From assembly GCA_937876245.1 (NCBI GenBank), contig CALEGP010000038.1, positions 1 through 64,000 on the forward strand: a DNA stretch of 64,000 bases, written 5' to 3'. The notes under the pieces are model-generated. The model had not been told where the DNA came from. It did not search any database and saw only the letters and a program-made list of their open reading frames with translations. A program made the translations under genes and the position numbers. Positions within the stretch are counted from its first letter, which is position 1. Each line of letters begins with the position of its first letter. The DNA is from an uncultured Actinomycetes bacterium (GTDB lineage Bacteria > Actinomycetota > Actinomycetes > Nanopelagicales > Nanopelagicaceae). This document shows positions 6,248-46,689 of this stretch, piece by piece.

Positions 6248-7197
6248 CGCCAGTTCCAGATCGCAACTTAGCGTTAGAGCTGATTCGCGTTACTGAAACG
6301 GCGGCACTTGCCGCAGGTCCATGGGTTGGCAGAGGCGATAAAATTTCAGCTGATGGCGCTGCAGTGAAAGCAATGCGCTCGATGATTAACACAGTAGATA
6401 TGGCGGGCATTGTCGTAATAGGTGAGGGCGAAAAAGATAACGCTCCGATGCTCCATGATGGCGAAGAGGTCGGAAATGGCTTAGGCCCAAAATGTGACGT
6501 TGCAGTTGACCCAATTGATGGAACTTCACTAACTGCAAGTGGAGCAAACGGAGCAATTAGCGTTATTTCACTTGCCCCACGTGGAGCTATGTTTGATCCA
6601 TCTGGCGTTTTCTATATGGATAAAATTGTCACCGGGCCAGAAGGTGGCGACAAGATCGATATCAGCGCACCAGTTAAATACAATTTGGAAGTTGTTGCGA
6701 AAGCTAAAAAACGGAGCATAAGCGATCTGACTGTAGTAGTTTTAAATCGCCCGCGACACGATAATTTGATCAAAGAAATTCGCGACGCTGGGGCGAGAGT
6801 TAAATTAATTCAAGATGGGGATGTCGCAGCAGCAATTGATGCGGTACGACCCAGCACATCTGTGGATTTGTTAATGGGAATTGGGGGCACTCCTGAGGGC
6901 GTAATAACTGCGGCAGCAATGATTTGTTTAGGCGGAGTCATCCAAGGGGTATTGCGACCTAAAGATCGCTCAGAGAAAGAGAGCGCAATTGCAGCCGGTT
7001 ATCAGTTGGATAAAATTTATCTAACAAAAGATTTAGTCAATTCAGATGATGTTTTCATGGCCGCTACTGGAATTACAGATGGCGAGTTATTGAAAGGAAT
7101 TAGATACTCAGAATATGGCGCAATTAGCCAATCGTTGGTTATGCGCGGCCAATCCCACACAGTCCGATTTGTGGAAACCGAGCATCACCTTAAATAG
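6244..7197 (+). CDS. glpX: Class II fructose-1,6-bisphosphatase (GlpX)
   Basis: This enzyme hydrolyses fructose-1,6-bisphosphate to fructose-6-phosphate, the committed gluconeogenic step. The 317-residue length is normal for GlpX. Visible signatures are the metal-binding GEGEKDNAPML segment at about residues 60-70 and DPIDGTSL at 89-96, both typical of the lithium-sensitive phosphatase fold. The GTG start overlaps the ppdK stop by 4 nt, so PPDK and GlpX form one gluconeogenesis operon. Some GlpX proteins also act on sedoheptulose bisphosphate; that cannot be judged here. Confidence 0.95.
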   Translation: MTPVPDRNLALELIRVTETAALAAGPWVGRGDKISADGAAVKAMRSMINTVDMAGIVVIGEGEKDNAPMLHDGEEVGNGLGPKCDVAVDPIDGTSLTASGANGAISVISLAPRGAMFDPSGVFYMDKIVTGPEGGDKIDISAPVKYNLEVVAKAKKRSISDLTVVVLNRPRHDNLIKEIRDAGARVKLIQDGDVAAAIDAVRPSTSVDLLMGIGGTPEGVITAAAMICLGGVIQGVLRPKDRSEKESAIAAGYQLDKIYLTKDLVNSDDVFMAATGITDGELLKGIRYSEYGAISQSLVMRGQSHTVRFVETEHHLK

Positions 7198-7204
7198 TAA
7201 GTAA

Positions 7205-9262
7205 TTGTCGGGTAGCGCCGCTAGGGTTCACCGTGTGATCGAGAAAATGCGTAGCGCCCTTGCGGTTGCAGTTGAAGCAATCGGTGGTTCACCACGCGAA
7301 GGTCAGATTGAAATGGCCGAAGCAGTAGCAAATGCGCTCTCTGATCGCCATCATTTATTAGTCCAAGCGGGAACTGGAACTGGAAAATCACTGGCTTATC
7401 TAGTCCCAGCACTTGTCCATGGCAAGAAAGTTTTAGTAGCAACCGCAACTCTGGCGCTGCAACGACAATTAGTTGAGCGCGACTTACCTAGAATAAAAGG
7501 CGCACTAGAAAAAGAGCTAGGGCGCGAGTTAACTTTCGCAGTATATAAAGGCGTAGGCAACTATCTATGTTTGCAGAAAATGAATGGTGCCGAGGGCGAT
7601 CCTGATGGTGAAGTTTTGTTAGATATCGGCTCACTAGAAAAAGATGCGAAGCGGCTTCGAGCTTGGGCAGAAACACCTGGAGTTTCGGGTGATCGTGACG
7701 ATGCCCCGGAAGTTGATCGTCGCGTCTGGTATGCCAACTCGGTTTCGGGGCGGGAATGTATCGGCAAGGATGACTGCGCATATGGATCAAAATGTTTTGC
7801 CGTAGCTGCGAAAGAAAAAGCCCAAACCGCCGATGTAGTGGTAACAAATCACACGTTGCTGGCGATTGAAATTGTCGATTCGCACCCGATTTTGCCCGAG
7901 CGAGATGCCGTAATTTTGGATGAGGCTCATGAATTTATGGACCGTACGACACAGGCGGTCACCGAAGAATTGACGGCTGGTCGCGTGGAGCGCGCAGCAA
8001 ATATGGCAAAGAAACATTTACCCGGCAAGGCATCTGATGCATTTGGCAAAGCTGCAGATGTATTTGCCAAAGCGCTAAATGATTTTGCCTCTGATGTACG
8101 AAACGATTCAACAAAAGCTGGACGACTTCCAGAGCTACCAGCTCAACTTGAGGCGCCAATTCGTAAAGTTAAGGAGAGCGCACAAGCAGTAATCGCTCTT
8201 ATCAACGCCGATTCGGATGTAATTAATCCAGATTCCATGGCGCAGCGCGCGCGAGTAAAAGGCGCAACGAACGAAGTTTCACAGACTGCGACAAAAATGC
8301 TCAAGCCAAGTGCGCACCAAGTTATGTGGTTTGAACCAACATTTTCCACTCTTTACTTAGCTCCCTTATCTGTCTCGCAAGTACTGCGTCAGAACCTTTT
8401 AACTGAAACACCGGTAATCGCAACTTCAGCAACTCTCTTAGTTGGTAAATCATTTGATTCCATAGCAAAATCAATTGGCTTTGTTCTAAGTTCGGGGGAG
8501 TCGGACGAGTCAGAGGATTCGGAAAGCTCGGAAAATGAATTAGAAGATGGTGAGATTGACCCGGCAAATGTTCAAATGCTCGATGTCGGATCACCCTTTG
8601 ATTTTGCGAACCAAGGAATGCTCTATCTGCCAAAACATATTCCAGAACCTGGGCGCGATGGACCAAGCAAAGAGGCCTTGACCGAACTGGCCGAATTAAT
8701 TGATGCCGCAGGCGGTAGAACTCTTGCGCTCTTCTCCTCCTGGCGGGGTGTAGAAATGGCAGATGAATATCTGCGAAGAGTTCTAGTCGAACTCGAAATT
8801 CCAATAATTACCCAGAAGCGCGGCGATAGCGTTGGCACACTTGTCGAAAGATTTGCCAAGGATCCAAAATCAATTTTGTTGGGCACCATTTCGCTCTGGC
8901 AGGGAATCGATGTTCCTGGCCCGGCATGCACACTCGTTGCAATCGATCGTATTCCTTTTCCTCGCCCCGATGAACCTGTGATGAGTGCTCGCGCCGCTGA
9001 AGCGGATGCAGCAGGTGGAAGTGGGTTTATGCAAGTTTCACTGCCTCGGGCGGCACTTTTATTAGCTCAAGGAACTGGACGTTTAATCAGATCAATCGAT
9101 GATCGTGGCGTCGTCGCAATATTGGATTCTCGAATTGTGACTAAAAGGTATGGCTCAGTTCTGTTAAATTCTATGCCGCCCTTTTGGCGCACAAGTGATG
9201 GAGCGGTAATTAGGGATTCGCTAAAACGCCTAAATAAAGATTATCTTGAGGCGGGCCAGTAA
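7205..9262 (+). CDS. DinG/XPD-family ATP-dependent DNA helicase
   Basis: This is a superfamily 2 helicase of the DinG/XPD (Rad3-related) group. Walker A is AGTGTGKS at residues 55-62, the DEAH box lies in ILDEAHEF at about 240, and motif VI in GTGRLIRS near the C-terminus. Four cysteines between these (NYLC, then ECIGKDDCAYGSKC) match the iron-sulfur domain of XPD-like helicases. An acidic Ser/Glu/Asp-rich insert of some 25 residues sits near residue 430. The start is the TTG at 7205, 7 nt after glpX; an ATG at 7247 is an alternative. The 3' end overlaps the convergent Nudix gene by 33 nt. A role in DNA repair is inferred from the family. Confidence 0.9.
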   Translation: MSGSAARVHRVIEKMRSALAVAVEAIGGSPREGQIEMAEAVANALSDRHHLLVQAGTGTGKSLAYLVPALVHGKKVLVATATLALQRQLVERDLPRIKGALEKELGRELTFAVYKGVGNYLCLQKMNGAEGDPDGEVLLDIGSLEKDAKRLRAWAETPGVSGDRDDAPEVDRRVWYANSVSGRECIGKDDCAYGSKCFAVAAKEKAQTADVVVTNHTLLAIEIVDSHPILPERDAVILDEAHEFMDRTTQAVTEELTAGRVERAANMAKKHLPGKASDAFGKAADVFAKALNDFASDVRNDSTKAGRLPELPAQLEAPIRKVKESAQAVIALINADSDVINPDSMAQRARVKGATNEVSQTATKMLKPSAHQVMWFEPTFSTLYLAPLSVSQVLRQNLLTETPVIATSATLLVGKSFDSIAKSIGFVLSSGESDESEDSESSENELEDGEIDPANVQMLDVGSPFDFANQGMLYLPKHIPEPGRDGPSKEALTELAELIDAAGGRTLALFSSWRGVEMADEYLRRVLVELEIPIITQKRGDSVGTLVERFAKDPKSILLGTISLWQGIDVPGPACTLVAIDRIPFPRPDEPVMSARAAEADAAGGSGFMQVSLPRAALLLAQGTGRLIRSIDDRGVVAILDSRIVTKRYGSVLLNSMPPFWRTSDGAVIRDSLKRLNKDYLEAGQ

Positions 9263-35179: not shown

Positions 35180-35485
35180 ATGCAAGATTTAACAATTACA
35201 CAAGCACCACATAAGGCCAATTCTCATTCCTGTCGTTGCGGCGAGGATGCCTCAGATTCATATCCAGAGCTTGATGCTAGAAATATTCCGTCCGCAATTA
35301 GACATCCGGCAATTTTTGGCGTTCTAGATTCATTACTTTTGGGGTCTGGTTTCGTTTTGATAGCGCCACATAAACCGGTCCCTCTGTTATCTCAGGTGGA
35401 GAAGAAGTTTCCTGGATTATTTGAAGTTAGTTTCATTAACGAAACGCCAGAAAATTTCCGTGTTCAATTTATTCGTAAAATTTAG
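35180..35485 (+). CDS. DUF2249 domain protein
   Basis: The 101-residue protein has a short N-terminal HSCRCGED cluster and then the DUF2249 core: ELDARNIPSAIRHPAIFGVLDSL, an APHKPVPLLSQ segment, and EVSFINETPENFRVQF. The family recurs beside genes of anaerobic nitrogen-oxide respiration, but its biochemistry is unsettled. The Cys/His cluster could bind a metal. It is 9 nt upstream of the response regulator, so the two form an operon. Confidence 0.85.
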   Translation: MQDLTITQAPHKANSHSCRCGEDASDSYPELDARNIPSAIRHPAIFGVLDSLLLGSGFVLIAPHKPVPLLSQVEKKFPGLFEVSFINETPENFRVQFIRKI

Positions 35486-35494
35486 GGCGAGCTT

Positions 35495-36136
35495 GTGGTA
35501 ACAAGTGTTTTTGTTGTAGATGATCACGAACTGGTGAGAAAAGGGTTAATTGATTTGATTAACCATGAGGATGATCTTCGAGTCGCCGGAAGCGCATCAA
35601 GTGTTTGCGAATCGTTAGAGAGATTCGAGGAGAGTCAGGCGGATGTGGCAGTACTGGATATTCGACTTGCAGACGGTTCTGGAGTAGATCTATGTCGAGA
35701 GCTTCTAGCTCTGAGCCCTCAACTTCGCGTACTAATGCTCACCTCCTTCGAAAGCGATGAGGCGTTATTGGGATCAATGCTGAACGGCGCCCATGGGTAT
35801 TTGTTAAAAGATATTCGCAATCTGGAACTTTTGTCGGCAATCAGGAAAGTTGCAGCAGGAGAAAGCCTGCTAGATAGTTTGGCAGTTTCAGCAGTTACTA
35901 GTCGTTTGCGGAAGAATAATAATCCGGCCAGCGAAATGTATGAACTCACGGAACAAGAACAGCGAGTGCTTGAACACATTGGGAAGGGCATGACTAATCG
36001 TGAAATTTCCAGATCTATGTTCTTGGCGGAAAAAACGGTTAAAAATTATGTTTCTTCGCTTTTGAGGAAACTCGGCCTTGAACGTCGCACTCAAGTTGCC
36101 GCTTTGGCGGTTCGTCTCGGAGTTAATAGACAGTGA
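35495..36136 (+). CDS. DosR/DevR-like LuxR-type response regulator
   Basis: The 213-residue protein has a receiver domain with Asp9-Asp10, phosphoacceptor Asp55, Thr83 and Lys105. The C-terminal LuxR-type helix-turn-helix follows. Its recognition part MFLAEKTVKNYVS followed by LGLERRTQ is nearly identical to mycobacterial DosR/DevR as I recall it, more than to enteric NarL. It likely activates the nitrate genes when its kinase senses low O2, NO or CO. The partner kinase lies 2 nt away, convergent. The start is GTG at 35495. Confidence 0.9.
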   Translation: MVTSVFVVDDHELVRKGLIDLINHEDDLRVAGSASSVCESLERFEESQADVAVLDIRLADGSGVDLCRELLALSPQLRVLMLTSFESDEALLGSMLNGAHGYLLKDIRNLELLSAIRKVAAGESLLDSLAVSAVTSRLRKNNNPASEMYELTEQEQRVLEHIGKGMTNREISRSMFLAEKTVKNYVSSLLRKLGLERRTQVAALAVRLGVNRQ

Positions 36137-36138
36137 AG

Positions 36139-37248
36139 TTAGAGACTTGCTCGCCAAATAGCTCTTGTTCCACCGTTGCCACCTTGAATTCTTGCAATTT
36201 CAAATTCCCCACCTCGCTCCAAGGCGCGTTTTTCCAAGTTAAGTAATCCGCTTCTTCTTGTGCTTTCGTTATATCCCATCCCGTTGTCTACAACTCTAAC
36301 TTCACAATATGTCTGATTTGCCATTATGAGAAGCTCAATAGATGACGCACTCGCATGACGAATTGAATTAGTAATTAACTCTCGTATCACGGGGATAATT
36401 TGAGCAGATAGATCTGCTCCAATTACCGAATCCACGGGCCCCTCAAATTTCAGGGCAATTCTGAAACCAGCTATTGAACTCAATGAAACTATTTCACTCT
36501 TCACTTGTGTTCGGAGATCCTTGATTGGAAGATGTTCTTGAAGTGCGAAAATAGTGGAGCGAATCTGTTGGACAGTTGCATCCAATCCGTCCATACTCTC
36601 CTTAACTTTAGGGAGATAGATTTGCGGAAGCGTGGAGTCTGATTCAAGAGATCGCATAGAGAGGCCGATTGCAAAAAGTCTTTGGATAACCAAATCATGT
36701 AGATCGCGCGCTATCCGCTCGCGTTCAGCCAGGAGGTCAACTTGGTTTCTAGCAACCTGTCCGCGATAACTGTCTATTGCAACTCCTGCAGCAGATGCTA
36801 AAACAACGACGAGTTGCTCATCTTCTTCGGTGAAATCCTGACCATTCCGTTTTTCGGTAAGGTAGAGGCTTCCGTAAATTTCCTCACGAATTCTAATTGG
36901 TACTCCTAAAAATCCAGACATCGAAGGGTGGTTTTTAGGAAAACCGATCGAGGCAGGATGATCGCTTAGAACAGGAATGCGCAATGGCGTGGGGTGCTTT
37001 AGAAGGTGACCCAACAACCCTTTTCCCTCTGGGAAGGTCGGTATTTCATCGGCCGTTTCTTCAGATATTCCTACATAAGTAAATTCTTCTAGAGAACCGT
37101 CTGGACTTATGGAACCCAGCGCCCCATAAGTGCAATCGGTAATTTCGACAGCATTTTGAATTAAACGAAGAAGGGAGGTTTTCAGGTCCTTCCCTTTTGC
37201 AACGTCCATGATCGCCTCAGAGAGCACGCTTAAGCGAGTCAGATTCAT
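36139..37248 (-). CDS. Single-GAF DosS/DosT-like haem sensor histidine kinase
   Basis: The 369-residue protein has one GAF domain (about 14-165), a HisKA_3 dimerisation box with phospho-His184 (ERIARDLHDLVIQRLFAIGLS), and an HATPase domain at about 260-369 (ELITNSIRHA, DNGMGY). The segment NHPSM-x2-FLGVP puts His107 at the position of the haem-ligand His149 of M. tuberculosis DosS. Tyr129 in SLYLTEK falls at the position of the distal Tyr171. DosS and DosT carry two GAF domains; this one has only the haem type. No membrane helix is seen, so it is cytoplasmic. It follows narK2 by 36 nt. Confidence 0.88.
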   Translation of the reverse strand: MNLTRLSVLSEAIMDVAKGKDLKTSLLRLIQNAVEITDCTYGALGSISPDGSLEEFTYVGISEETADEIPTFPEGKGLLGHLLKHPTPLRIPVLSDHPASIGFPKNHPSMSGFLGVPIRIREEIYGSLYLTEKRNGQDFTEEDEQLVVVLASAAGVAIDSYRGQVARNQVDLLAERERIARDLHDLVIQRLFAIGLSMRSLESDSTLPQIYLPKVKESMDGLDATVQQIRSTIFALQEHLPIKDLRTQVKSEIVSLSSIAGFRIALKFEGPVDSVIGADLSAQIIPVIRELITNSIRHASASSIELLIMANQTYCEVRVVDNGMGYNESTRRSGLLNLEKRALERGGEFEIARIQGGNGGTRAIWRASL

Positions 37249-37284: not shown

Positions 37285-38625
37285 TTAGCTTTTCGCTTCT
37301 GCATTTACACGCGCATAAAACCACCAGGCTATTCCAGCGCCAACTATGGAAAAGGCGCTGATGGCAAGAAAGAAGTTCTCTGGCGCAAAAATGGATAGCA
37401 GCACTCCGAAAATAAACGGCCCAAATGCGGCAATTGCCGCAGTCCAGCCAAGTACGCCACCCGCCTGTCTAGGCGCAAAAATCATTGGCATCTGTTTAAA
37501 CGTGCTGGCATTCCCAACGCCCGTGAAGAAGAAGATCACCATCATTCCCCAGAAAAATGGGGCAAAGTCGGCAGAACTATCAGGGGATAGGTGGCCACTT
37601 GTAAAGAGTGCGGCGGCTGCAATTCCTACTCCAGAGAAACAAGTCAATATTCCGCCACCAATTCGATCGGCAAGTGGTCCACTTACTACACGAGCCACAG
37701 AACCAACCAATGGACCGAAGAAAGCGTATTTAACCGGGTCAGGAGCATTTGCAAATTCACCGAATAAGTTCTTTATAAGAAGTCCAAATTGTGCTGCAAA
37801 CCCGGAGAAAGTTCCGAAGGTCATGAAGTAAAGAAAGGTCATTAGCCAAGTGTGCCGGTTATTGAATATATCGAGCTGATCGCGAATTCCTCGAGACTTG
37901 ACTGGAACGCTTTTTAGCAGCAACCAGGAAAGTATCACTGACACTAGTACAAAGGGGATCCAAATTAGTCCAGCATTTTGGTACCACACATCTTTATCAA
38001 TATTCTTTGTGGCATCCACGAAACGTTGCGGAGCGCCAAATGTAGCGCCAAACATGGCCGAGCCAACGATAACGGGCGTCAAGAATTGAATGATGCTTAC
38101 GCCAAAGTTACCAACTCCTGCCTGAATTCCAAGAGCCAATCCCTGTTTTGATCGTGGGAAGAAGTAGGAAGTGCTTGGCATAAACCCCGAGAAAACACCA
38201 CCTCCAATTCCCGCCAGGAATGCAAGTGCTAGTAATGCAACATATGGAGTGGAAGGCGTACGAATTACAAGCGCCCAACCAATCAAAGGCAAGAGTAAGA
38301 GCGCTGTTGAGTAGGTAACCAATTTTCGTGTTCCAAGTATTGGTGGCAAAAACATCCAAATTAATCGTAAGCCACCGCCAGCTAGACCCGGCATCGCTGC
38401 CAACCAATACAGCTCCTTCTTTGATAAATCAAAACCTAAGTTATTCAATTTTGGGGCGAGTGCTGAAACAAGGAACCAACTCATAAAGCCGAGGGTTAGG
38501 GCATAAGTTGTCACCCACAAAGTTTTCCAAGCAATCTTGGAGTCCCACTCTCCCTCGATATTCGGGTCCCAAGAGGTAAGCCATTCGGAGGACTTGCCAG
38601 TGGGATTCGAGTTACTTGTTGACAT
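37285..38625 (-). CDS. narK2: Nitrate/nitrite transporter, NarK2 type
   Basis: This 446-residue major facilitator has 12 predicted helices and an extended N-terminus ending in WLTSWDPNIEGEWD. The nitrate signature GGGVFSGFMPSTSYFFPRSKQG and GIQAGVGNFGVS identify the NarK2 type, usually a nitrate/nitrite antiporter. It would bring nitrate to the cytoplasmic NarG site and remove nitrite. It starts 2 nt after narK1 stops. In mycobacteria narK2 belongs to the DosR regulon, which fits the neighbouring kinase. Confidence 0.92.
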   Translation of the reverse strand: MSTSNSNPTGKSSEWLTSWDPNIEGEWDSKIAWKTLWVTTYALTLGFMSWFLVSALAPKLNNLGFDLSKKELYWLAAMPGLAGGGLRLIWMFLPPILGTRKLVTYSTALLLLPLIGWALVIRTPSTPYVALLALAFLAGIGGGVFSGFMPSTSYFFPRSKQGLALGIQAGVGNFGVSIIQFLTPVIVGSAMFGATFGAPQRFVDATKNIDKDVWYQNAGLIWIPFVLVSVILSWLLLKSVPVKSRGIRDQLDIFNNRHTWLMTFLYFMTFGTFSGFAAQFGLLIKNLFGEFANAPDPVKYAFFGPLVGSVARVVSGPLADRIGGGILTCFSGVGIAAAALFTSGHLSPDSSADFAPFFWGMMVIFFFTGVGNASTFKQMPMIFAPRQAGGVLGWTAAIAAFGPFIFGVLLSIFAPENFFLAISAFSIVGAGIAWWFYARVNAEAKS

Positions 38626-38627
38626 TT

Positions 38628-39941
38628 TTATGCTCCATTTCGGTTAGAATCTTGAAAATCAATTTGGTGTTCGAGATTTGGGCTTGCTTCGTGGAGTAGC
38701 TTCATAATGACAAAATGCATCCAAATTAATGCGGTAAGGGTTAGCAGGAACAGCACTACAAATGTTGATTGGGGCAGTCCAGTCCAATGTCCAACAATGA
38801 CGAATAATGGTGGTAGAAAGAAGCCACCTAGCGCTCCTAATGTTCCTACCAGACCACCTACGGCTCCGATATCCTTAGGAAAATATTCTGGAATATGTTT
38901 ATAAACCGCAGCTTTCCCAATTCCCATTGAGCAACCAACGATAAAGAGCAACCCGGTAAATGGCACAACTCCTAAGTGGTACGGAAGTACCTCTTTTGGC
39001 CCACTCGGAGTATTCAATACGATATATCCAAATGGTGCAGCTAGAAGTAGCAATGCAAGGACCATGGTTATAAAGGTCGCGTACATCAATCTGCGCGCAC
39101 CAATACGATCCGATAATTGTCCACCTACGGGCCTAAGTAAAGAAGCCGGAAAGATGAAAAGTGCAGTAAGTAAGGCGGCATCTCTAAGTTCTAGGCCGTA
39201 TACGGACACGTAATATTTTGGCATCCATGATGCAAGAGCGACATATGCTCCAAAAACGATAAAATAATAGAAGCTAAAGCGCCACACTTGGACATACCTG
39301 AGCGGAATAAACATTTCCTTTAATGGTCGAGCCATTTGTACATTTGCTGAATCAGATGGAGTGAGCAACATCGTTGCAATAGCGGTGATCACCAGCAGAA
39401 TGGAATAGAGCGCAGGGACAAATCGCCACCCTCCTGGAATAATTCCACCTAAATAGGATCCGCCTACGGTGCCAGCAATAAGTGCGGGGCCAATGAACTT
39501 CGTTAAAGATGCACCAATATTGCCGGCACCAAACACGCCAAGAGCGAAACCCTGATGTTTTCTTTCGAACCAGTGCGAATTCCATGCAATTCCTACGCTA
39601 AATAAGTTTCCAGCGATACCAATTAGGAATGCGAGAATTAGCAACCAATTGTACGAAAGCTCCATGTGGGCCAAAAGGTAGGAAGGGATTGCTGTTATAA
39701 ACAGCATTGCGACTGTTACTCGTTTTCCACCAATTCGATCAGCAAGAATTCCAAGAAACAAGCGCCAAATTGATCCGTTAAGAATGGCAACGGCAGATAA
39801 CCAAGCCAGTTGTGAATCACTTAATCCAAATTCCTCTTGGATGGGAATTCCTAGAACTCCAAACATTAACCAAACAGCAAACATAAGGGTGAAGGCGAAT
39901 GTTGATAAAGTTAAAACTCTTCCTGAATCTTTCATTTTCAC
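38628..39941 (-). CDS. narK1: Nitrate transporter, NarK1 type
   Basis: The 437-residue, 12-helix major facilitator carries the NarK1-like signature GNLFSVGIAWNSHWFERKHQG and GVFGAGNIGASLTK. Characterised NarK1 proteins are proton-linked nitrate importers that start respiration. The GTG at 39941 has aaggag 8 nt upstream. It is the first gene of narK1-narK2-kinase and is divergent from narG, sharing a 116-bp control region. Confidence 0.92.
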   Translation of the reverse strand: MKMKDSGRVLTLSTFAFTLMFAVWLMFGVLGIPIQEEFGLSDSQLAWLSAVAILNGSIWRLFLGILADRIGGKRVTVAMLFITAIPSYLLAHMELSYNWLLILAFLIGIAGNLFSVGIAWNSHWFERKHQGFALGVFGAGNIGASLTKFIGPALIAGTVGGSYLGGIIPGGWRFVPALYSILLVITAIATMLLTPSDSANVQMARPLKEMFIPLRYVQVWRFSFYYFIVFGAYVALASWMPKYYVSVYGLELRDAALLTALFIFPASLLRPVGGQLSDRIGARRLMYATFITMVLALLLLAAPFGYIVLNTPSGPKEVLPYHLGVVPFTGLLFIVGCSMGIGKAAVYKHIPEYFPKDIGAVGGLVGTLGALGGFFLPPLFVIVGHWTGLPQSTFVVLFLLTLTALIWMHFVIMKLLHEASPNLEHQIDFQDSNRNGA

Positions 39942-40004: not shown

Positions 40005-40024
40005 ATAGGGTCTTTGTACCTATA
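40005..40024. promoter_or_regulatory. Candidate DosR-like operator between narK1 and narG
   Basis: The 20-mer reads AT-A-GGGTCTTTGTACC-TATA. It has inverted arms ATAGG/CCTAT and keeps GGG.CT and a following CC of the mycobacterial DosR consensus (TTSGGGACTWWAGTCCCSAA), about 12 of 20 positions. A second TAGGG lies 9 bp upstream. The regulator coded nearby has an almost unchanged recognition helix, so a related site is expected. The match is partial and the call tentative. Confidence 0.4.
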
Positions 40025-40057
40025 CATCTGAGAGCACTAGAGCGACAGAATGGGGGT

Positions 40058-43000
40058 ATGAAAAATGAGGAAGCTACATCTGCTGGTTTAGAGGAATCAC
40101 TTGTTAAACTTGGTCGGTTTTTTACCAGAGGCGAAGTCTCTCAAGATTTAAGGTCTATAACTAAAGATGGTGGCCGCGAGGGCGACGAGTTTTATCGTGA
40201 TCGCTGGAGTCATGACAAGGTAGTTCGATCAACACACGGGGTTAATTGCACTGGCTCTTGCTCTTGGAAAGTCTATGTGAAAGATGGAATCATCACTTGG
40301 GAAACCCAGCAAACTGATTATCCATCCGTCGGCCCAGATTCGCCCGAGTACGAGCCACGGGGGTGCCCTCGAGGTGCGGCCTTTTCTTGGTACACATATT
40401 CTCCAACTCGAATTCGTTACCCATATATTCGGGGGGTACTCCTGGAAATGTATAGGGAGGCGAAGTCTCGCCTTGGTGATCCCGTACTTGCTTGGGCAGA
40501 TGTTGTGGATAATCCTGAACATAGAACTAAGTACCAAAAAGCGCGCGGTAAGGGTGGTTTAGTCCGCGCCGAGTGGGGTGAAATATCCGAAGTAATTGCA
40601 GCCGCTCATGTTCACACGATCAAAAAATATGGACCTGATCGCGTCTTTGGATTTTCTCCTATCCCAGCTATGTCTATGGCTTCACACGCAGCCGGTTCAC
40701 GATTCATATCGCTCATGGGTGGATCGATGCTCTCTTTTTATGATTGGTATGCAGATTTACCAGTTGCCTCTCCACAAGTCTTTGGTGACCAGACCGATGT
40801 TCCTGAATCGGCCGATTGGTTTAACGCTTCATATTTAATTATGTGGGGATCAAATGTCCCAGTTACGAGAACTCCAGACGCCCACTTTATGACAGAGGCT
40901 CGGTATCGTGGTCAAAAAGTTATTGCTATAAGTCCAGATTATGCCGACAACACCAAGTTTGCAGATGAGTGGGTGGCCCCTCATCCGGGAACAGATGGCG
41001 CTCTTGGGATGGCTATGGGCCACGTGATTCTCAAAGAATTTTTCGTAGATAGACAAACGCCACGATTTACCGAATATGTTAAAAAATTCACTGACCTGCC
41101 TTACTTGGTTTCGCTCCGGGAAAAAGACGGGGCTTGGGTGCCAGATAAGTTTATTGTTGCCGCGGATCTCGGAGATACTTCAGAGGGCGCTAAATTTAAA
41201 ACTGTTGTTTTAGATTCGGTTAACGGAAAGACTTTTATCCCCAATGGCTCACTGGGGCATCGATTCAATGATGAATCAATGGGTAAATGGAATCTTGATT
41301 TAGAAGGAGTTGATCCACTCTTATCTGTCTATAAAACGCAGGGCGCTTCAGTAACTGCTATTTCTTTACCCCGCTTCGATGTGGGTCAAGGAGAGTCCGA
41401 AAGTGGAGGTGTTCTCTATCGAGGAGTTCCAACAATTGAAGTGGCCGGGAGAAAGGTGACAACAGTATTTGATCTTATGCTGGCTCAGTATGGCGTCGCC
41501 CGTGAAGGACTTGCAGGAGATTGGCCAAAAGATTACACAGATATCTCTCCATATACTCCAGCGTGGCAGGAAGAAATTACGAATGTTCCAGCTGCGCAAG
41601 CAATTCGGATCGCGCGCGAATTTGCACAGAATGCCGATGAGTCTGAAGGTCGCTCGATGATTCTTCTTGGCGCGGGCACCAATCATTGGTTTCATTCAGA
41701 CACTATGTACCGAACATTTTTGGCGCTCGTAACTCTGACTGGATGCCAGGGTGTAAACGGAGGCGGTTGGGCTCACTATGTAGGTCAAGAAAAATGTCGC
41801 CCGGTAACAGGTTGGGCACAGATTGCATCCGGCGCAGATTGGTCCCGCCCTGCTCGGCAAATGATCGGAACTGCATTTTGGTATGTCTCAACCGATCAGT
41901 GGAGATACGACGCTCTTAAATCTGAATTGCTTGCAACTCCGCTAGGAGAGCAGCGATTCAAGAACATGGCCGCAATTGATGTTCTAGCGAAATCAGCGCG
42001 CATGGGCTGGATGCCCTCTTATCCCTCACTAAATCGAAATTCCCTTGATTTAGCGGATGAAGCTCGCTCGCTTGGAGTAGAACCAGTGCAGCACGTTGTT
42101 GATGAGTTAAAGAATGGAGATCTAAAATTTGCTATTGAGGACCCCGATGCGCCAGAGAATTGGCCACGCGTCTTAACGGTTTGGCGGGCTAATATTCTTG
42201 GGTCCTCCAGTAAAGGAAATGAATATTTCTTAAAACATTTACTTGGTACAGATAACTCAGTGCGAGCCGAAGAGAATGGATTAGAAGACCGACCCCGGGA
42301 TGTTAAATGGCAGACAGAAGCACCGGAAGGAAAACTGGATTTACTTGTATCAATTGATTTCCGCATGACCAGCACTGGGCTATTCGGGGATATTCTGTTA
42401 CCAGCCGCAACGTGGTACGAAAAACATGATCTATCAAGCACTGACATGCATCCATTCATTCATGCTTTCACCCCGGCGATTAATCCGCCATGGGAGACAA
42501 AAACAGATTACGACATCTTCCAAATGTTAGGGCGGCAGGTCGCCGAACAGTCGAAGGGACATCTTGGCGAACGTGAAGATATTGTTGTTGTCCCTCTGCT
42601 CCATGACACCCCTGACGCGATGGCCAATCCAAGTGGCATAGTCGAGGATTGGCGTGATGGGAAAGTGGAGCCGATACCTGGAGTTACCATGCCAAAACTC
42701 ATGCTCGTAAAGCGGGACTACACGAAATTGGGCGAAAAGATGTCGGCGCTTGGTCCGCTGGTTGATCAATTGGGCACGAACACTAAGGGAGTTCCAGTAA
42801 GTCTGCTTCCGGAAGTCGAACTCTTGCGCCATGTGAACGGTGTAGTCGCGCGCGGTGTTGCCGAAGGACGGCCATCTCTTGCTACGGCGATTAATGCTTG
42901 CGAAACAATTCTCGCATTATCCGGAACAACAAATGGGCGGGTCGCTGTTGCAGGATTCAGGGCGCTTGAAAAGCGGACTGGTCAGAAGTTAACAGATTTG

Positions 43001-43741
43001 GCCCTTGATAATGAAGGAAAGCGAATAACTTTTGCTGACACGCAAGCTCGTCCAGTACCGGTGATTACCAGCCCAGAATGGTCTGGTTCCGAGCACGGAG
43101 GACGTCGATATACCGCCTTCGCAATAAATGTTGAACGTCTCAAGCCATGGCACACGCTGACTGGACGACAACACTTCTTCATAGATCACGACTGGATGAC
43201 AGAACTGGGTGAACAAATGCCAATCTTTAGGCCGCCACTTAATATGCATCGGATTTTTGGGAGCCAAGGAGATGGAATTGAAAAAGAAGTAACCGTTCGA
43301 TATTTGACACCTCACTCGAAGTGGTCAATTCATTCCGAATATCAAGATAATCTATTTATGCTCTCGTTATCGCGGGGAGGACAAGAGATTTGGATGAGCG
43401 TTGAAGATGCGCAAACAATCGGAGTCAAAGATAATGAGTGGATTGAGGCCTATAACCGTAATGGCGTCGTAGTAGCTCGGGCATGCATCTCTCACCGTAT
43501 GCCAACAGGAACTGTTTTCATGTATCACGCCAAGGACAGAGTCGTTGATGTACCTCTTGCAGAAACTTCCGGCAAACGCGGCGGAATTCATAATTCTCTT
43601 ACGAGATTGATGCTAAAGCCAACTCACTTAATCGGGGGTTATGCCCAACTTTCGTTTGCATTCAATTACCTTGGGCCGACAGGCAATCAAAGAGATGAAG
43701 TGACGGTTATTCGCCGTCGATCACAGGATGTGGAGTACTAA
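40058..43741 (+). CDS. narG: Respiratory nitrate reductase, catalytic alpha subunit
   Basis: NarG reduces nitrate to nitrite at a Mo-bisMGD site facing the cytoplasm. The 1227-residue protein has the FS0 [4Fe-4S] ligands His60, Cys64, Cys68 and Cys103, and the SFYDWYADLP segment with Asp229 in the place of the Mo-ligand Asp of E. coli NarG. PESADWFN, TRTPDAHF and the C-terminal molybdopterin-dinucleotide domain (from about 1075) follow. There is no Tat signal, only the remnant-like GRFFTRGE that marks inward-facing NarG. Its stop overlaps the narH start by one base. Confidence 0.97.
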   Translation: MKNEEATSAGLEESLVKLGRFFTRGEVSQDLRSITKDGGREGDEFYRDRWSHDKVVRSTHGVNCTGSCSWKVYVKDGIITWETQQTDYPSVGPDSPEYEPRGCPRGAAFSWYTYSPTRIRYPYIRGVLLEMYREAKSRLGDPVLAWADVVDNPEHRTKYQKARGKGGLVRAEWGEISEVIAAAHVHTIKKYGPDRVFGFSPIPAMSMASHAAGSRFISLMGGSMLSFYDWYADLPVASPQVFGDQTDVPESADWFNASYLIMWGSNVPVTRTPDAHFMTEARYRGQKVIAISPDYADNTKFADEWVAPHPGTDGALGMAMGHVILKEFFVDRQTPRFTEYVKKFTDLPYLVSLREKDGAWVPDKFIVAADLGDTSEGAKFKTVVLDSVNGKTFIPNGSLGHRFNDESMGKWNLDLEGVDPLLSVYKTQGASVTAISLPRFDVGQGESESGGVLYRGVPTIEVAGRKVTTVFDLMLAQYGVAREGLAGDWPKDYTDISPYTPAWQEEITNVPAAQAIRIAREFAQNADESEGRSMILLGAGTNHWFHSDTMYRTFLALVTLTGCQGVNGGGWAHYVGQEKCRPVTGWAQIASGADWSRPARQMIGTAFWYVSTDQWRYDALKSELLATPLGEQRFKNMAAIDVLAKSARMGWMPSYPSLNRNSLDLADEARSLGVEPVQHVVDELKNGDLKFAIEDPDAPENWPRVLTVWRANILGSSSKGNEYFLKHLLGTDNSVRAEENGLEDRPRDVKWQTEAPEGKLDLLVSIDFRMTSTGLFGDILLPAATWYEKHDLSSTDMHPFIHAFTPAINPPWETKTDYDIFQMLGRQVAEQSKGHLGEREDIVVVPLLHDTPDAMANPSGIVEDWRDGKVEPIPGVTMPKLMLVKRDYTKLGEKMSALGPLVDQLGTNTKGVPVSLLPEVELLRHVNGVVARGVAEGRPSLATAINACETILALSGTTNGRVAVAGFRALEKRTGQKLTDLALDNEGKRITFADTQARPVPVITSPEWSGSEHGGRRYTAFAINVERLKPWHTLTGRQHFFIDHDWMTELGEQMPIFRPPLNMHRIFGSQGDGIEKEVTVRYLTPHSKWSIHSEYQDNLFMLSLSRGGQEIWMSVEDAQTIGVKDNEWIEAYNRNGVVVARACISHRMPTGTVFMYHAKDRVVDVPLAETSGKRGGIHNSLTRLMLKPTHLIGGYAQLSFAFNYLGPTGNQRDEVTVIRRRSQDVEY

Positions 43742-45312
43742 TGAAAGTTATGGCGCAAATGGGAATGGTGATGAACCTCGATAAGTGCATTGGCTGTCAT
43801 ACATGTTCTGTTACATGCAAGCAGGCTTGGACAAATCGAACTGGGCTTGAATATGCCTGGTTCAATAATGTCGAAACTAGGCCAGGTCAGGGATATCCAC
43901 GCGGGTATGAAGATCAAGCAAAGGCCAAAGGGGGATGGGTGCGAACCTCGAAAGGACGCCTTCGACTCAAAGCTGGGAGTCGCATAAGTCGTCTAATTTC
44001 TATTTTCTCTAATCCAAAGATGTTAAATATTAAGGATTATTACGAACCGTGGACGTATGAGTATGACAATTTGATAACTGCTCCGCTTGGCCAGCAGACT
44101 CCAGTAGCACGGCCGAAATCTTTGCTCACTGGTAAACCAATGAAGATTGAGTGGTCTGCAAATTGGGATGATGACCTGGGCGGAGGTCCGGAAAATATCG
44201 AGAAAGACCCAATTCTAAAGAAATTGGCAGAGGATGTAACCACAAAAGTTAAATTAGCGTTCGAGGAAACTTTTATGTTCTACCTTCCTCGTATTTGCGA
44301 ACACTGCCTCAATCCAGCATGCGTTGCGGCATGCCCTTCAGGTGCTATGTACAAGCGCGCTGAAGATGGAATCGTCCTCGTAGATCAACAACAGTGCCGC
44401 GGGTGGCGAATGTGCGTTTCGGCATGCCCCTACAAAAAAGTTTATTTCAATCATAAGACAGGAAAAGCTGAAAAATGCACATTGTGTTATCCGCGTCTTG
44501 AAATAGGACTGCCGACAGTTTGTTCTGAAACTTGTGTCGGCCGCTTACGTTATCTGGGTCTATTCTTGTACGACGCAGACAGAGTTACTGAAGCAGCGTC
44601 AGTTGAAAACGAACAGGATTTATATCAGGCCCAGCTCGACCTACTTCTGGATCCAAATGATCCGGAAGTTTTGAAAGCGGCACGGGCCGAGGGAATTCCA
44701 GAAGACTGGTTGGTAGCGGCTCAAAATTCTCCCGTTTACAAACTTGCTAAAGTTTATAAAATTGCTCTTCCTTTGCACCCTGAATATCGAACGATGCCAA
44801 TGGTTTGGTACGTGCCGCCTCTTTCGCCAATTGTTGATGTTCTGACAGAGACTGGTCATGATGGTGAGGATGCAGGGAATCTCTTTGGCGCAATTGATGC
44901 TCTTAGAATTCCACTTGCATATCTAGCAGAACTTTTCTCGGCAGGAGACAAAGAAGTAGTTGAGGGAACGCTTCGAAAATTGTCGGCAATGCGTTCATAC
45001 ATGCGCGACATAAATTTAGGTCGTACCCCGCGACCCGAAATTCCTGCGGCAGTGGGCATGGATCAGGAATCTATTTATGAGATGTATCGTCTATTGGCAA
45101 TCGCTAAGCACGAGGACAGATATGTCGTTCCTGCGGCACATGCTGAGCAGGCTGAAGATCTGGAAAGAATGGGTCAGAACATGGGTTGTTCACTCGACGG
45201 CGTAAATCTTGGTGATGCAAATGCTGGACCATTTGGTCAATCGTCCGGAAATCCCGTTCCGGTAACAATCGAGAATTTCAATATTATGAAAGCGAGACAG
45301 TCTAATGAATAA
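43741..45312 (+). CDS. narH: Respiratory nitrate reductase, beta (iron-sulfur) subunit
   Basis: NarH wires electrons from NarI haems to NarG through four clusters. The first Cys group is Cys16/19/22/26. Further groups begin at Cys186/189/194/198 and Cys219/225/229, with Trp222 in place of a Cys, which marks the [3Fe-4S] cluster. The last is Cys246/249/261/265. The 523 residues match the family, and the ATG has ggag upstream. The 3' end overlaps narJ by 8 nt. Confidence 0.97.
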   Translation: MKVMAQMGMVMNLDKCIGCHTCSVTCKQAWTNRTGLEYAWFNNVETRPGQGYPRGYEDQAKAKGGWVRTSKGRLRLKAGSRISRLISIFSNPKMLNIKDYYEPWTYEYDNLITAPLGQQTPVARPKSLLTGKPMKIEWSANWDDDLGGGPENIEKDPILKKLAEDVTTKVKLAFEETFMFYLPRICEHCLNPACVAACPSGAMYKRAEDGIVLVDQQQCRGWRMCVSACPYKKVYFNHKTGKAEKCTLCYPRLEIGLPTVCSETCVGRLRYLGLFLYDADRVTEAASVENEQDLYQAQLDLLLDPNDPEVLKAARAEGIPEDWLVAAQNSPVYKLAKVYKIALPLHPEYRTMPMVWYVPPLSPIVDVLTETGHDGEDAGNLFGAIDALRIPLAYLAELFSAGDKEVVEGTLRKLSAMRSYMRDINLGRTPRPEIPAAVGMDQESIYEMYRLLAIAKHEDRYVVPAAHAEQAEDLERMGQNMGCSLDGVNLGDANAGPFGQSSGNPVPVTIENFNIMKARQSNE

Positions 45313-45952
45313 AGAGATCGCGAGAGTCATTTCATCTTTTGCACTTCTTTATCCTGGCGATGAATTTATCGCGAAGCGACCAGAACTTCTAGCCTTGGCG
45401 AGGAGTTTGCCTGCTAATTTGGGTGGGCCGCTAGTCCAATTCCTTGAAGCGAGTGAATCGCTACCACTTAATAGGCTGCAAGAGCACTACGTCGAGACCT
45501 TTGATATGAGACGAAAGTGCTCTCTTTTTCTGACTTCTTGGACGCATGGCGACACCCGAAACAGAGGAATGGCCCTCGTCTATTTCGCCGAGATATATAA
45601 ACGATTTGGAATCAAGTTGGAATCGACAGAACTTCCAGACCACCTATCGGTCGTTCTCGAATTTGCCGCGCTTCATAATCCGAAGGAGGGAGATTTGCTT
45701 TTAGGAGAGCATCAAGCTCCAATTCTTTTAATAAGGGATTCACTCGCTAAGGCCAGATCCATTTACGTGAACGTTCTTGATGCGGTAATTGCTTCACTTC
45801 CAGCAATGACCGATGAAATTCTTGCACGAGCAGAAGCACTAGCAATTACTGGACCGCCTAAGGAGTTTGTTGGATTAAGTGGCGCAGTATCCGTCGCACT
45901 CGAACCATTCTCGTCTAGGGGAAATTCTATTTTCGAAGGAGCAATTCAATGA
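45305..45952 (+). CDS. narJ: Nitrate reductase assembly chaperone
   Basis: NarJ is a cytoplasmic chaperone that holds NarGH during cofactor insertion and membrane docking. The 215-residue, mainly helical protein has the family features LLYPGDEF near the start, LQEHYVETFDMRRKCSLFLT and the DHLSVVLEFAAL segment. It sits in the conserved narGHJI order and overlaps both neighbours. Confidence 0.94.
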   Translation: MNKEIARVISSFALLYPGDEFIAKRPELLALARSLPANLGGPLVQFLEASESLPLNRLQEHYVETFDMRRKCSLFLTSWTHGDTRNRGMALVYFAEIYKRFGIKLESTELPDHLSVVLEFAALHNPKEGDLLLGEHQAPILLIRDSLAKARSIYVNVLDAVIASLPAMTDEILARAEALAITGPPKEFVGLSGAVSVALEPFSSRGNSIFEGAIQ

Positions 45953-46689
45953 GTTCGATTGATGTTCTGCTCTGGTCCGTACTTCCCTATTTTGCAATAT
46001 CCTCCTTCACTATAGGCCTAATGTGGCGTTTTAAATACGATAAATTCAATTGGACGACTAGATCATCACAGCTTTATGAAGGAAAATTGCTCAGAATTGC
46101 CGGCCCCCTATTTCATCTTGGACTTTTTGCCGTCATTGGTGGACATATCGTTGGTTTGCTTGTGCCTCAAAGCTTTACCGATTCGCTTGGCCTTAGCCAT
46201 GAGGCGTACCATCTTGGCGCAATTTCAATGGGCGGTGCGGCCGGAGTAGCGACACTACTTGGGATTGGATTGCTTATTTATCGCCGTCGAACCACAGCTA
46301 TGGTTTTTGTAGAGACGACGAAAAACGATAAGGGAATGTACATATTTTTAGTTGCCACTCTATTAGCTGGTTCGGCAGCGACGCTATCGAGCGCTGGAAT
46401 TATCGGCAAGGAACATAATTATCGCGAAACGGTTGCACCGTGGGTCAGGTCAATTCTTACTTTTCGTCCAGACGGTGAATTGATAATGGCCAGCCCCCTC
46501 GCTTTTAGAATTCACGCAATAACGGCCATGGTGCTATTCGTGGTTTGGCCATTCACTCGACTCGTTCATTCGCTAAGTGCGCCAATCGGATATCTATTTC
46601 GGCCTTCAATCGTCTATCGAACCCGTGACGTTCGATCCAGCGCAGGCAACCGTAGGTCTAGACAGGGTTGGGAACGAGTGAAGTATTAA
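45949..46689 (+). CDS. narI: Respiratory nitrate reductase, gamma (cytochrome b) subunit
   Basis: NarI anchors NarGH to the membrane and oxidises quinol at two b haems. The 246-residue protein has five hydrophobic helices. The four haem ligands are visible as His56, His66, His189 and His207, very close to the E. coli numbering (56, 66, 187, 205). The long C-terminal RDVRSSAGNRRSRQGWE tail is basic and cytoplasmic. The ATG overlaps the narJ stop (ATGA). Confidence 0.96.
   Translation: MSSIDVLLWSVLPYFAISSFTIGLMWRFKYDKFNWTTRSSQLYEGKLLRIAGPLFHLGLFAVIGGHIVGLLVPQSFTDSLGLSHEAYHLGAISMGGAAGVATLLGIGLLIYRRRTTAMVFVETTKNDKGMYIFLVATLLAGSAATLSSAGIIGKEHNYRETVAPWVRSILTFRPDGELIMASPLAFRIHAITAMVLFVVWPFTRLVHSLSAPIGYLFRPSIVYRTRDVRSSAGNRRSRQGWERVKY

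Follow-up and report, generated by a model that had tools for sequence, protein, structure and literature searches.

In enterobacteria (NarXL and NarQP) and staphylococci (NreABC), the nar genes are controlled by a NarL-family regulator, as is predicted for the locus described here. NarXL and NarQP use a periplasmic nitrate sensor and NreABC combines an Fe-S PAS domain with a nitrate-binding GAF domain, whereas the kinase at this locus carries a predicted haem-binding GAF domain instead, and its partner regulator is closest to DevR rather than to the regulators of those systems. DosS (DevS) and DosT of Mycobacterium tuberculosis share with this kinase the GAF-A fold, a proximal His, a distal Tyr, the HisKA_3/HATPase core, and a DosR-type partner. 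However, DosS contains two GAF domains in 579 aa (PMC4082495), whereas the kinase found here has a single GAF domain in 369 aa and carries Gly at the position of DosS Glu87. Likewise, DosR of M. tuberculosis serves a dormancy regulon, with narK2 among its targets (PMC4082495), whereas one local nar site was found here. The DevS/OsdK-DevR/OsdR system of Streptomyces coelicolor (SCO0203/0204) is similar in that a DosS-type kinase and a DosR-type regulator act on a narGHJI operon via an upstream Dos-like site, which is located at -53 of narG2 in that species, and activation of narG2 by DevSR/OsdKR has been reported (PMC4766573, PMC5069765). The osdR and osdK genes form one operon and OsdR has about 50 predicted targets (PMC5069765), whereas the regulator and kinase genes are convergent in our locus. 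DosS-type sensing and DosR-type control of nar (in Streptomyces) and of narK2 (in M. tuberculosis) are already known. The present locus adds a conserved version of DosSR with one GAF domain and one site in a streamlined lineage, i.e. a compact variant and not a new kind of system.

The window (the 64,000-nt stretch of DNA analysed, from an uncultured member of the Nanopelagicaceae) contains narK-narK-dosS on the minus strand and narGHJI in divergent orientation on the plus strand, with molybdenum-cofactor genes located 3' of narI (Table 1). The narG, narH, narJ, and narI products exceed the curated cut-offs of their models, and the NarK proteins best fit the NarK subfamily model, with scores below its cut-off. 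Both narK genes immediately precede the kinase gene in the same orientation, and narK-narK-dosS is a probable single unit in which the second NarK gene comes first. The stop codons of the convergent regulator and kinase genes are only 2 bp apart. A DUF2249 gene is found 5' of the regulator gene in part of the relatives; its product here has an N-terminal HSCRCGED stretch and co-travels with the nar cassette, and DUF2249 matches near narG are also present in genomes G070 and G334.

Table 1. Features of the nar-dosS locus (positions in the window; +, plus strand; -, minus strand;., no strand assigned).
Feature	Position	Strand	Basis or remark
DUF2249 protein	35180..35485	+	PF10006, E=3e-18; kept in L013, L016, L042, L049
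DevR/DosR-orthologous response regulator	35495..36136	+	3c3w (DevR), E=2.7e-63
Single-GAF DosS-type sensor histidine kinase, 369 aa	36139..37248	-	ATG start; kinase in 29 family genomes
HATPase_c catalytic domain	36148..36516	-	Match to DosS CA domain 3zxo/8sbm, E=4e-17
HisKA_3 dimerisation/phospho-acceptor domain, His184 (codon 36697-36699)	36535..36726	-	Pfam
Haem-type GAF domain (residues 19-162), homologous to DosS/DosT GAF-A	36763..37194	-	phmmer, 2vzw, E=2e-43; Foldseek, TMt 0.95 to 4yof
Tyr129 codon, predicted distal tyrosine (DosS Tyr171, DosT Tyr169)	36862..36864	-	Alignments
His107 codon, predicted proximal haem ligand (DosS His149, DosT His147)	36928..36930	-	Alignments
Gly45 codon (DosS Glu87, DosT Gly85), DosT-like open haem channel predicted	37114..37116	-	Alignment; mutant work in PMC4082495
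NarK-family nitrate/nitrite transporter, directly upstream of kinase	37285..38625	-	TIGR00886, 279.7 bits, below the 311.7 cut-off
Second NarK-family transporter	38628..39941	-	TIGR00886, 220 bits, below cut-off
Dos-box-like site TAGGGTCTTTGTACCTA, predicted regulator binding site, narK/narG intergenic	40006..40022	.	Fixed distance in 27 genomes
Predicted -10 element CAGAAT, leaderless narG transcript (start = A of ATG 40058)	40046..40051	+	Promoter alignment
narG, nitrate reductase alpha	40058..43741	+	TIGR01580, 1660 bits
narH, nitrate reductase beta	43741..45312	+	TIGR01660, 753 bits
narJ, assembly chaperone	45305..45952	+	TIGR00684, 125 bits
narI, haem b subunit gamma	45949..46689	+	TIGR00351, 184 bits

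In the kinase, Pfam detected one GAF domain (residues 21-159) and, above the cut-off, a HisKA_3 domain (175-238), and its HATPase_c match (residues 284-332) was slightly below the cut-off (26.1 versus 26.4 bits). The kinase core carries H, N, and G boxes in the HisKA_3/HATPase_c architecture of DosS and DosT, and the DosS-like box described in the initial annotation was found as ERIARDLHDLVIQRLFAIGLS, with His184 as the phospho-acceptor. The haem-His motif and the H-box are separated by 71 residues, as compared with 223-258 in two-GAF homologues, so that there is no space for a second GAF domain; the earlier reading of one GAF domain rather than two is thereby upheld. The tandem GAF-A and GAF-B arrangement of DosS/DosT kinases is absent, and, judged from its sequence, the protein is a single-GAF relative that would work like DosS and DosT, not a canonical DosS. 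No other HisKA_3 (PF07730) kinase turned up in the genome, which measures 1.52 Mb. A NarX/NarQ nitrate sensor identity was considered and rejected (64-78 bits against cut-offs of 553-578, with the match covering only the kinase part and the adjoining end of the GAF domain), as were the NCBIfam equivalog names NarX, MadR, and LiaS, for which every score was far under the cut-off.

The first match of the kinase in a phmmer search of the PDB was the GAF-A domain of DosT (2vzw, E=2e-43), and DosS GAF-A entries came next (~1e-37), values well outside chance expectation. No gap interrupts the alignment of residues 19-162 with DosS/DosT GAF-A, and the identities are 72/140 (51%) to DosT and 66/144 (46%) to DosS. 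The initial annotation had equated His107 and Tyr129 with His149 and Tyr171 of DosS, and this correspondence was confirmed: His107 falls on DosS His149 (DosT His147), and the His-to-Tyr spacing is 22 residues in both proteins. As in DosS and DosT, the proximal His resides in an HPxM..FLGVP motif and the distal Tyr in LYLT. His107, Tyr129, and Gly45 are invariant in 24 of 24 aligned single-GAF homologues and also across 31 GAF domains, a set in which GAF-A domains from two-GAF kinases are represented. The AlphaFold model of the kinase has a mean pLDDT of 82 and a pTM of 0.48, and its domain arrangement is therefore unreliable; its best 17 fold matches in the PDB were all haem-bound DosS/DosT GAF-A domains (target TM-scores up to 0.95, 1.2 A). 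The model itself is haem-free, and we infer the haem pocket and its occupancy from homology. The E87A and E87G substitutions in DosS result in stable oxy complexes, with disputed kinetics (PMC4082495), and the DosT-like Gly45 in place of Glu87 would favour a stable oxy complex and thus direct gas sensing over redox sensing. Of the 'O2/NO/CO or redox sensor' proposed initially, the gas-sensing part is consistent with the sole GAF domain belonging to the DosS/DosT GAF-A type, while the redox option is disfavoured by this glycine. In DosS, both the selectivity for ligands and the stability of the oxy form are influenced by GAF-B (PMC4082495), so that the ligand selectivity of the single-GAF kinase may differ.

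The regulator is a NarL-type REC-HTH protein closest to DevR, with scores against structures of 216 bits for DevR, 114 for VraR, and 99 for NarL. It keeps the phospho-site D54 as well as T82, K104, K179, K182, and N183, of which the last three are base-contacting residues in DevR (PMC4082495). Alignment of the narK/narG intergenic regions of relatives (footprinting) exposed an invariant block, which reads TAGGGTCTTTGTACCTA in this genome. It is present in 27 genomes in this form or as close variants, e.g. GGGTCTTTAGACCT and GGGTCTAAAGACCT, and the distance between its centre and the narG ATG is 43 nt in 26 of the 27 and 44 nt in the other one. Genome G065 contains two copies of the site, GGGTCTTAAGTCCC and GGGTCTTTAGACCC, the former of which agrees at 13 of 14 positions with GGGACTWWAGTCCC, which we take to be the mycobacterial Dos box consensus (0 of 3000 shuffles did so). 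The site in the present genome agrees at 9 of 14 positions with this assumed consensus, a score reached by ~38% of shuffles; it was thus rejected as a significant Dos box by itself, and its naming rests on the relatives and on its position. A search of the window with the textbook Dos box GGGACTTNNGTCCC yielded 28 matches with up to three mismatches, whereas 33 were expected by chance, and a sigma-70 scan yielded no more matches than shuffled sequences. The genome contains one exact copy of TAGGGTCTTTGTACCTA, the next best having two mismatches, and a genome search allowing three mismatches returned fewer matches than the reversed control; no wider regulon is therefore claimed, and the system looks dedicated to nar on the basis of these searches.

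Of 24 distinct promoter sequences, 23 have A at position -11 relative to the narG ATG, 23 have A at -9, and all 24 have T at -7. The -10-like element to which these bases belong sits 6 nt before the ATG and is conserved across the 24 sequences. This conservation suggests that narG mRNA is leaderless and starts at the ATG, because a -10 element at this position would place the transcript start there and the regulator site at about -43. This is the place where DevR-type activators overlap the -35 element, and a start-proximal box overlapping -35 is the activation geometry of DevR (PMC3029386).

The distribution of the cassette was surveyed in 296 genomes of the family by whole-genome searches (a seed-based contig scan retrieved two close relatives only). 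The single-GAF kinase is present in 29 of them (30 matches reached the threshold, one being a different kinase in G079), narG also in 29, and both genes together in 26 (Fisher p ~1e-30 with relatedness ignored). In the kinase-only genomes G181, G188, and G305, the kinase gene sits at a contig end, and the narG of G302, which has no kinase partner, is on a 3.6-kb contig, so that only G070 and G079 are real exceptions. The gene order is the same wherever contigs allow comparison (own genome, L013, L016, G029, G065, G211, G292, G297, and G312). The link to nitrate respiration drawn in the initial annotation is supported by this co-occurrence, together with the DosR-orthologous partner and the Dos-box-like site upstream of narG. 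Among the genomes of its own genus that were searched, the kinase or narG was found in the window's genome alone, even though the four other genomes compared share 90-98% identity in a core protein; the nar-dosS cassette thus appears to have been gained or lost as one unit.

G079 (L044:14212-15726) contains a related nar cluster, a convergent DevR-like regulator gene, and a gene for a 292-aa kinase with neither a Pfam GAF domain nor the HPxM..FLGVP haem motif, and it retains a Dos-box-like site upstream of narG, which looks like a natural loss of the haem sensor. In G070 (L043), which has narG without dosS, two ORFs upstream of narG (8461-9210 and 6416-7114) resemble, by eye, helix-turn-helix regulators with C-terminal Cys clusters, suggesting that the regulator has been replaced.

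Outside the family, full-length kinase matches (E <=1e-62) were obtained in 14 genomes when 395 genomes from the class were sampled, and a DevR-like regulator gene is close by in every neighbourhood fetched. Single-GAF DosS-type kinases occur in several other actinobacterial families. Like the kinase described here, those of G042, G046, G334, G432, G513, G605, G627, and others have a single haem-type GAF domain and 71-78 residues between the His motif and the H-box. They are 36-43% identical to it, and among those fetched only G334 adjoins narGHJI, its single-GAF dosS and regulator genes lying near narGHJI and DUF2249. The protein is 'minimal', as initially described, in having one GAF domain, but kinases of this type are not peculiar to the locus. 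In the tree, the nar-linked family clade has a support of 100/100 and joins two-GAF sequences of mycobacterial type at 95/91; the number of GAF domains must have switched between one and two at least twice according to the branches with good support, and other forks are weakly supported. This topology suggests that the single-GAF kinases of other families are at least partly of separate origin. No single-GAF DosS was found in the open-access literature; given the occurrence of such kinases elsewhere and the published DosSR control of nar/narK, the novelty of the present system is moderate.

Ferrochelatase (PF00762) and HemQ (PF06778) were not found in this genome, which is 99.99% complete, and are also absent from G065, G206, G211, G202, G297, and G305 (each at least 98% complete), while both are present in G029 and G228. 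Two COX1-type oxidases and NarI are encoded in the genome. 'Ca. Nanopelagicales', an order of freshwater actinobacteria, has been reported to be haem-auxotrophic (PMC10202952), and the organism is probably a respiring haem auxotroph: with both enzymes missing, haem is probably scavenged and its supply uncertain.

We consider it likely that the kinase is a DosT-like O2 sensor, which phosphorylates the DosR-like regulator in hypoxia and thereby activates nar; NO and CO are possibly further ligands. We infer O2 as the main ligand, the sign of the response, the phosphotransfer, and the occupancy of the site. In this cytosolic kinase of the DosS/DosT type, haem b would be held in the one sensory GAF domain by His107, and Tyr129 would hydrogen-bond O2 on the ferrous haem, keeping the kinase off, as in DosT (PMC4082495). 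As O2 declines, the haem, ferrous and five-coordinate, would allow autophosphorylation on His184, and the phosphate would pass to Asp55 of the regulator, which would then bind the Dos-box-like site, whose centre is 43 nt before narG, and activate a leaderless narGHJI transcript. The regulator would probably also activate the divergent narK-narK-dosS unit, generating positive feedback, and NO could tune the kinase in either direction. A more specific proposal, in which a one-GAF, one-target DosSR gas sensor operates on scavenged haem, a single Dos-box-derived site drives leaderless nar, and GAF-B was lost independently of the other single-GAF lineages, is put forward only tentatively.

Other signals are conceivable. 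The kinase shares protein family and target genes with S. coelicolor DevS, whose autophosphorylation is lowered by NO at >1 uM along with narG2 transcripts (PMC4766573), and its gene comes after nitrate/nitrite transporter genes on the same strand. It might thus be a haem-based NO feedback sensor, in which NO arising from Nar-made nitrite lowers kinase activity and caps nar expression rather than reporting hypoxia. However, O2 keeps mycobacterial DosS and DosT off, while with NO or CO they are active (PMC4082495), and NO feedback and O2 sensing can coexist in a single protein; we regard this explanation as rather unlikely. Because NO inhibits DevS of S. coelicolor (PMC4766573), whereas mycobacterial DosS is active with NO (PMC4082495), the sign of a ligand effect is not safely transferable.

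A redox sensor, of the kind once suggested for M. tuberculosis DosS, would be switched off in air by auto-oxidation of its haem iron to the ferric form. Such a sensor would agree with the DosS fold and the His/Tyr pair of the GAF domain, but it is improbable given that the auto-oxidation residue, DosS Glu87, corresponds to Gly45 here, as in DosT, and that all 31 homologues share this Gly. Many ligands are known for GAF domains and the kinase is linked to nitrate genes, so a non-haem ligand, e.g. nitrate as in staphylococcal NreA, could be imagined, with nitrate and not a gas as the signal. The haem His and Tyr are nevertheless invariant, the best 17 structural matches are without exception haem-bound DosS/DosT GAF-A, and NreA was matched neither by sequence nor among the fold matches listed, all of which render a ligand other than haem highly improbable. 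We also see little likelihood that, in a haem auxotroph, the apo form reports a lack of haem and thereby prevents the haem-requiring NarI from being made without its cofactor. The missing ferrochelatase and HemQ families in this and six other nar-dosS genomes and the haem auxotrophy reported for acI relatives (PMC10202952, PMC12381374) would fit such a haem-availability sensor, but G029 and G228 carry this cassette and yet retain both enzymes, so that the sensor is not tied to auxotrophy, and terminal oxidases require haem as well.

DosT-like O2 sensing is thus the reading that we prefer. The role of GAF-B in DosS and DosT is unsettled (PMC4082495), and a kinase naturally devoid of GAF-B, conserved alongside its regulator and a single target promoter, would allow sensing, phosphotransfer, and promoter output to be studied side by side in a small system. 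If the one-GAF, one-target reading is true, GAF-B would be dispensable for gas-gated signalling, and the sensor would couple anaerobic respiration to O2 and to external haem. The locus also offers an explanation, at the level of regulation, of how nitrate is respired by streamlined actinobacteria that seemingly rely on their neighbours for haem.
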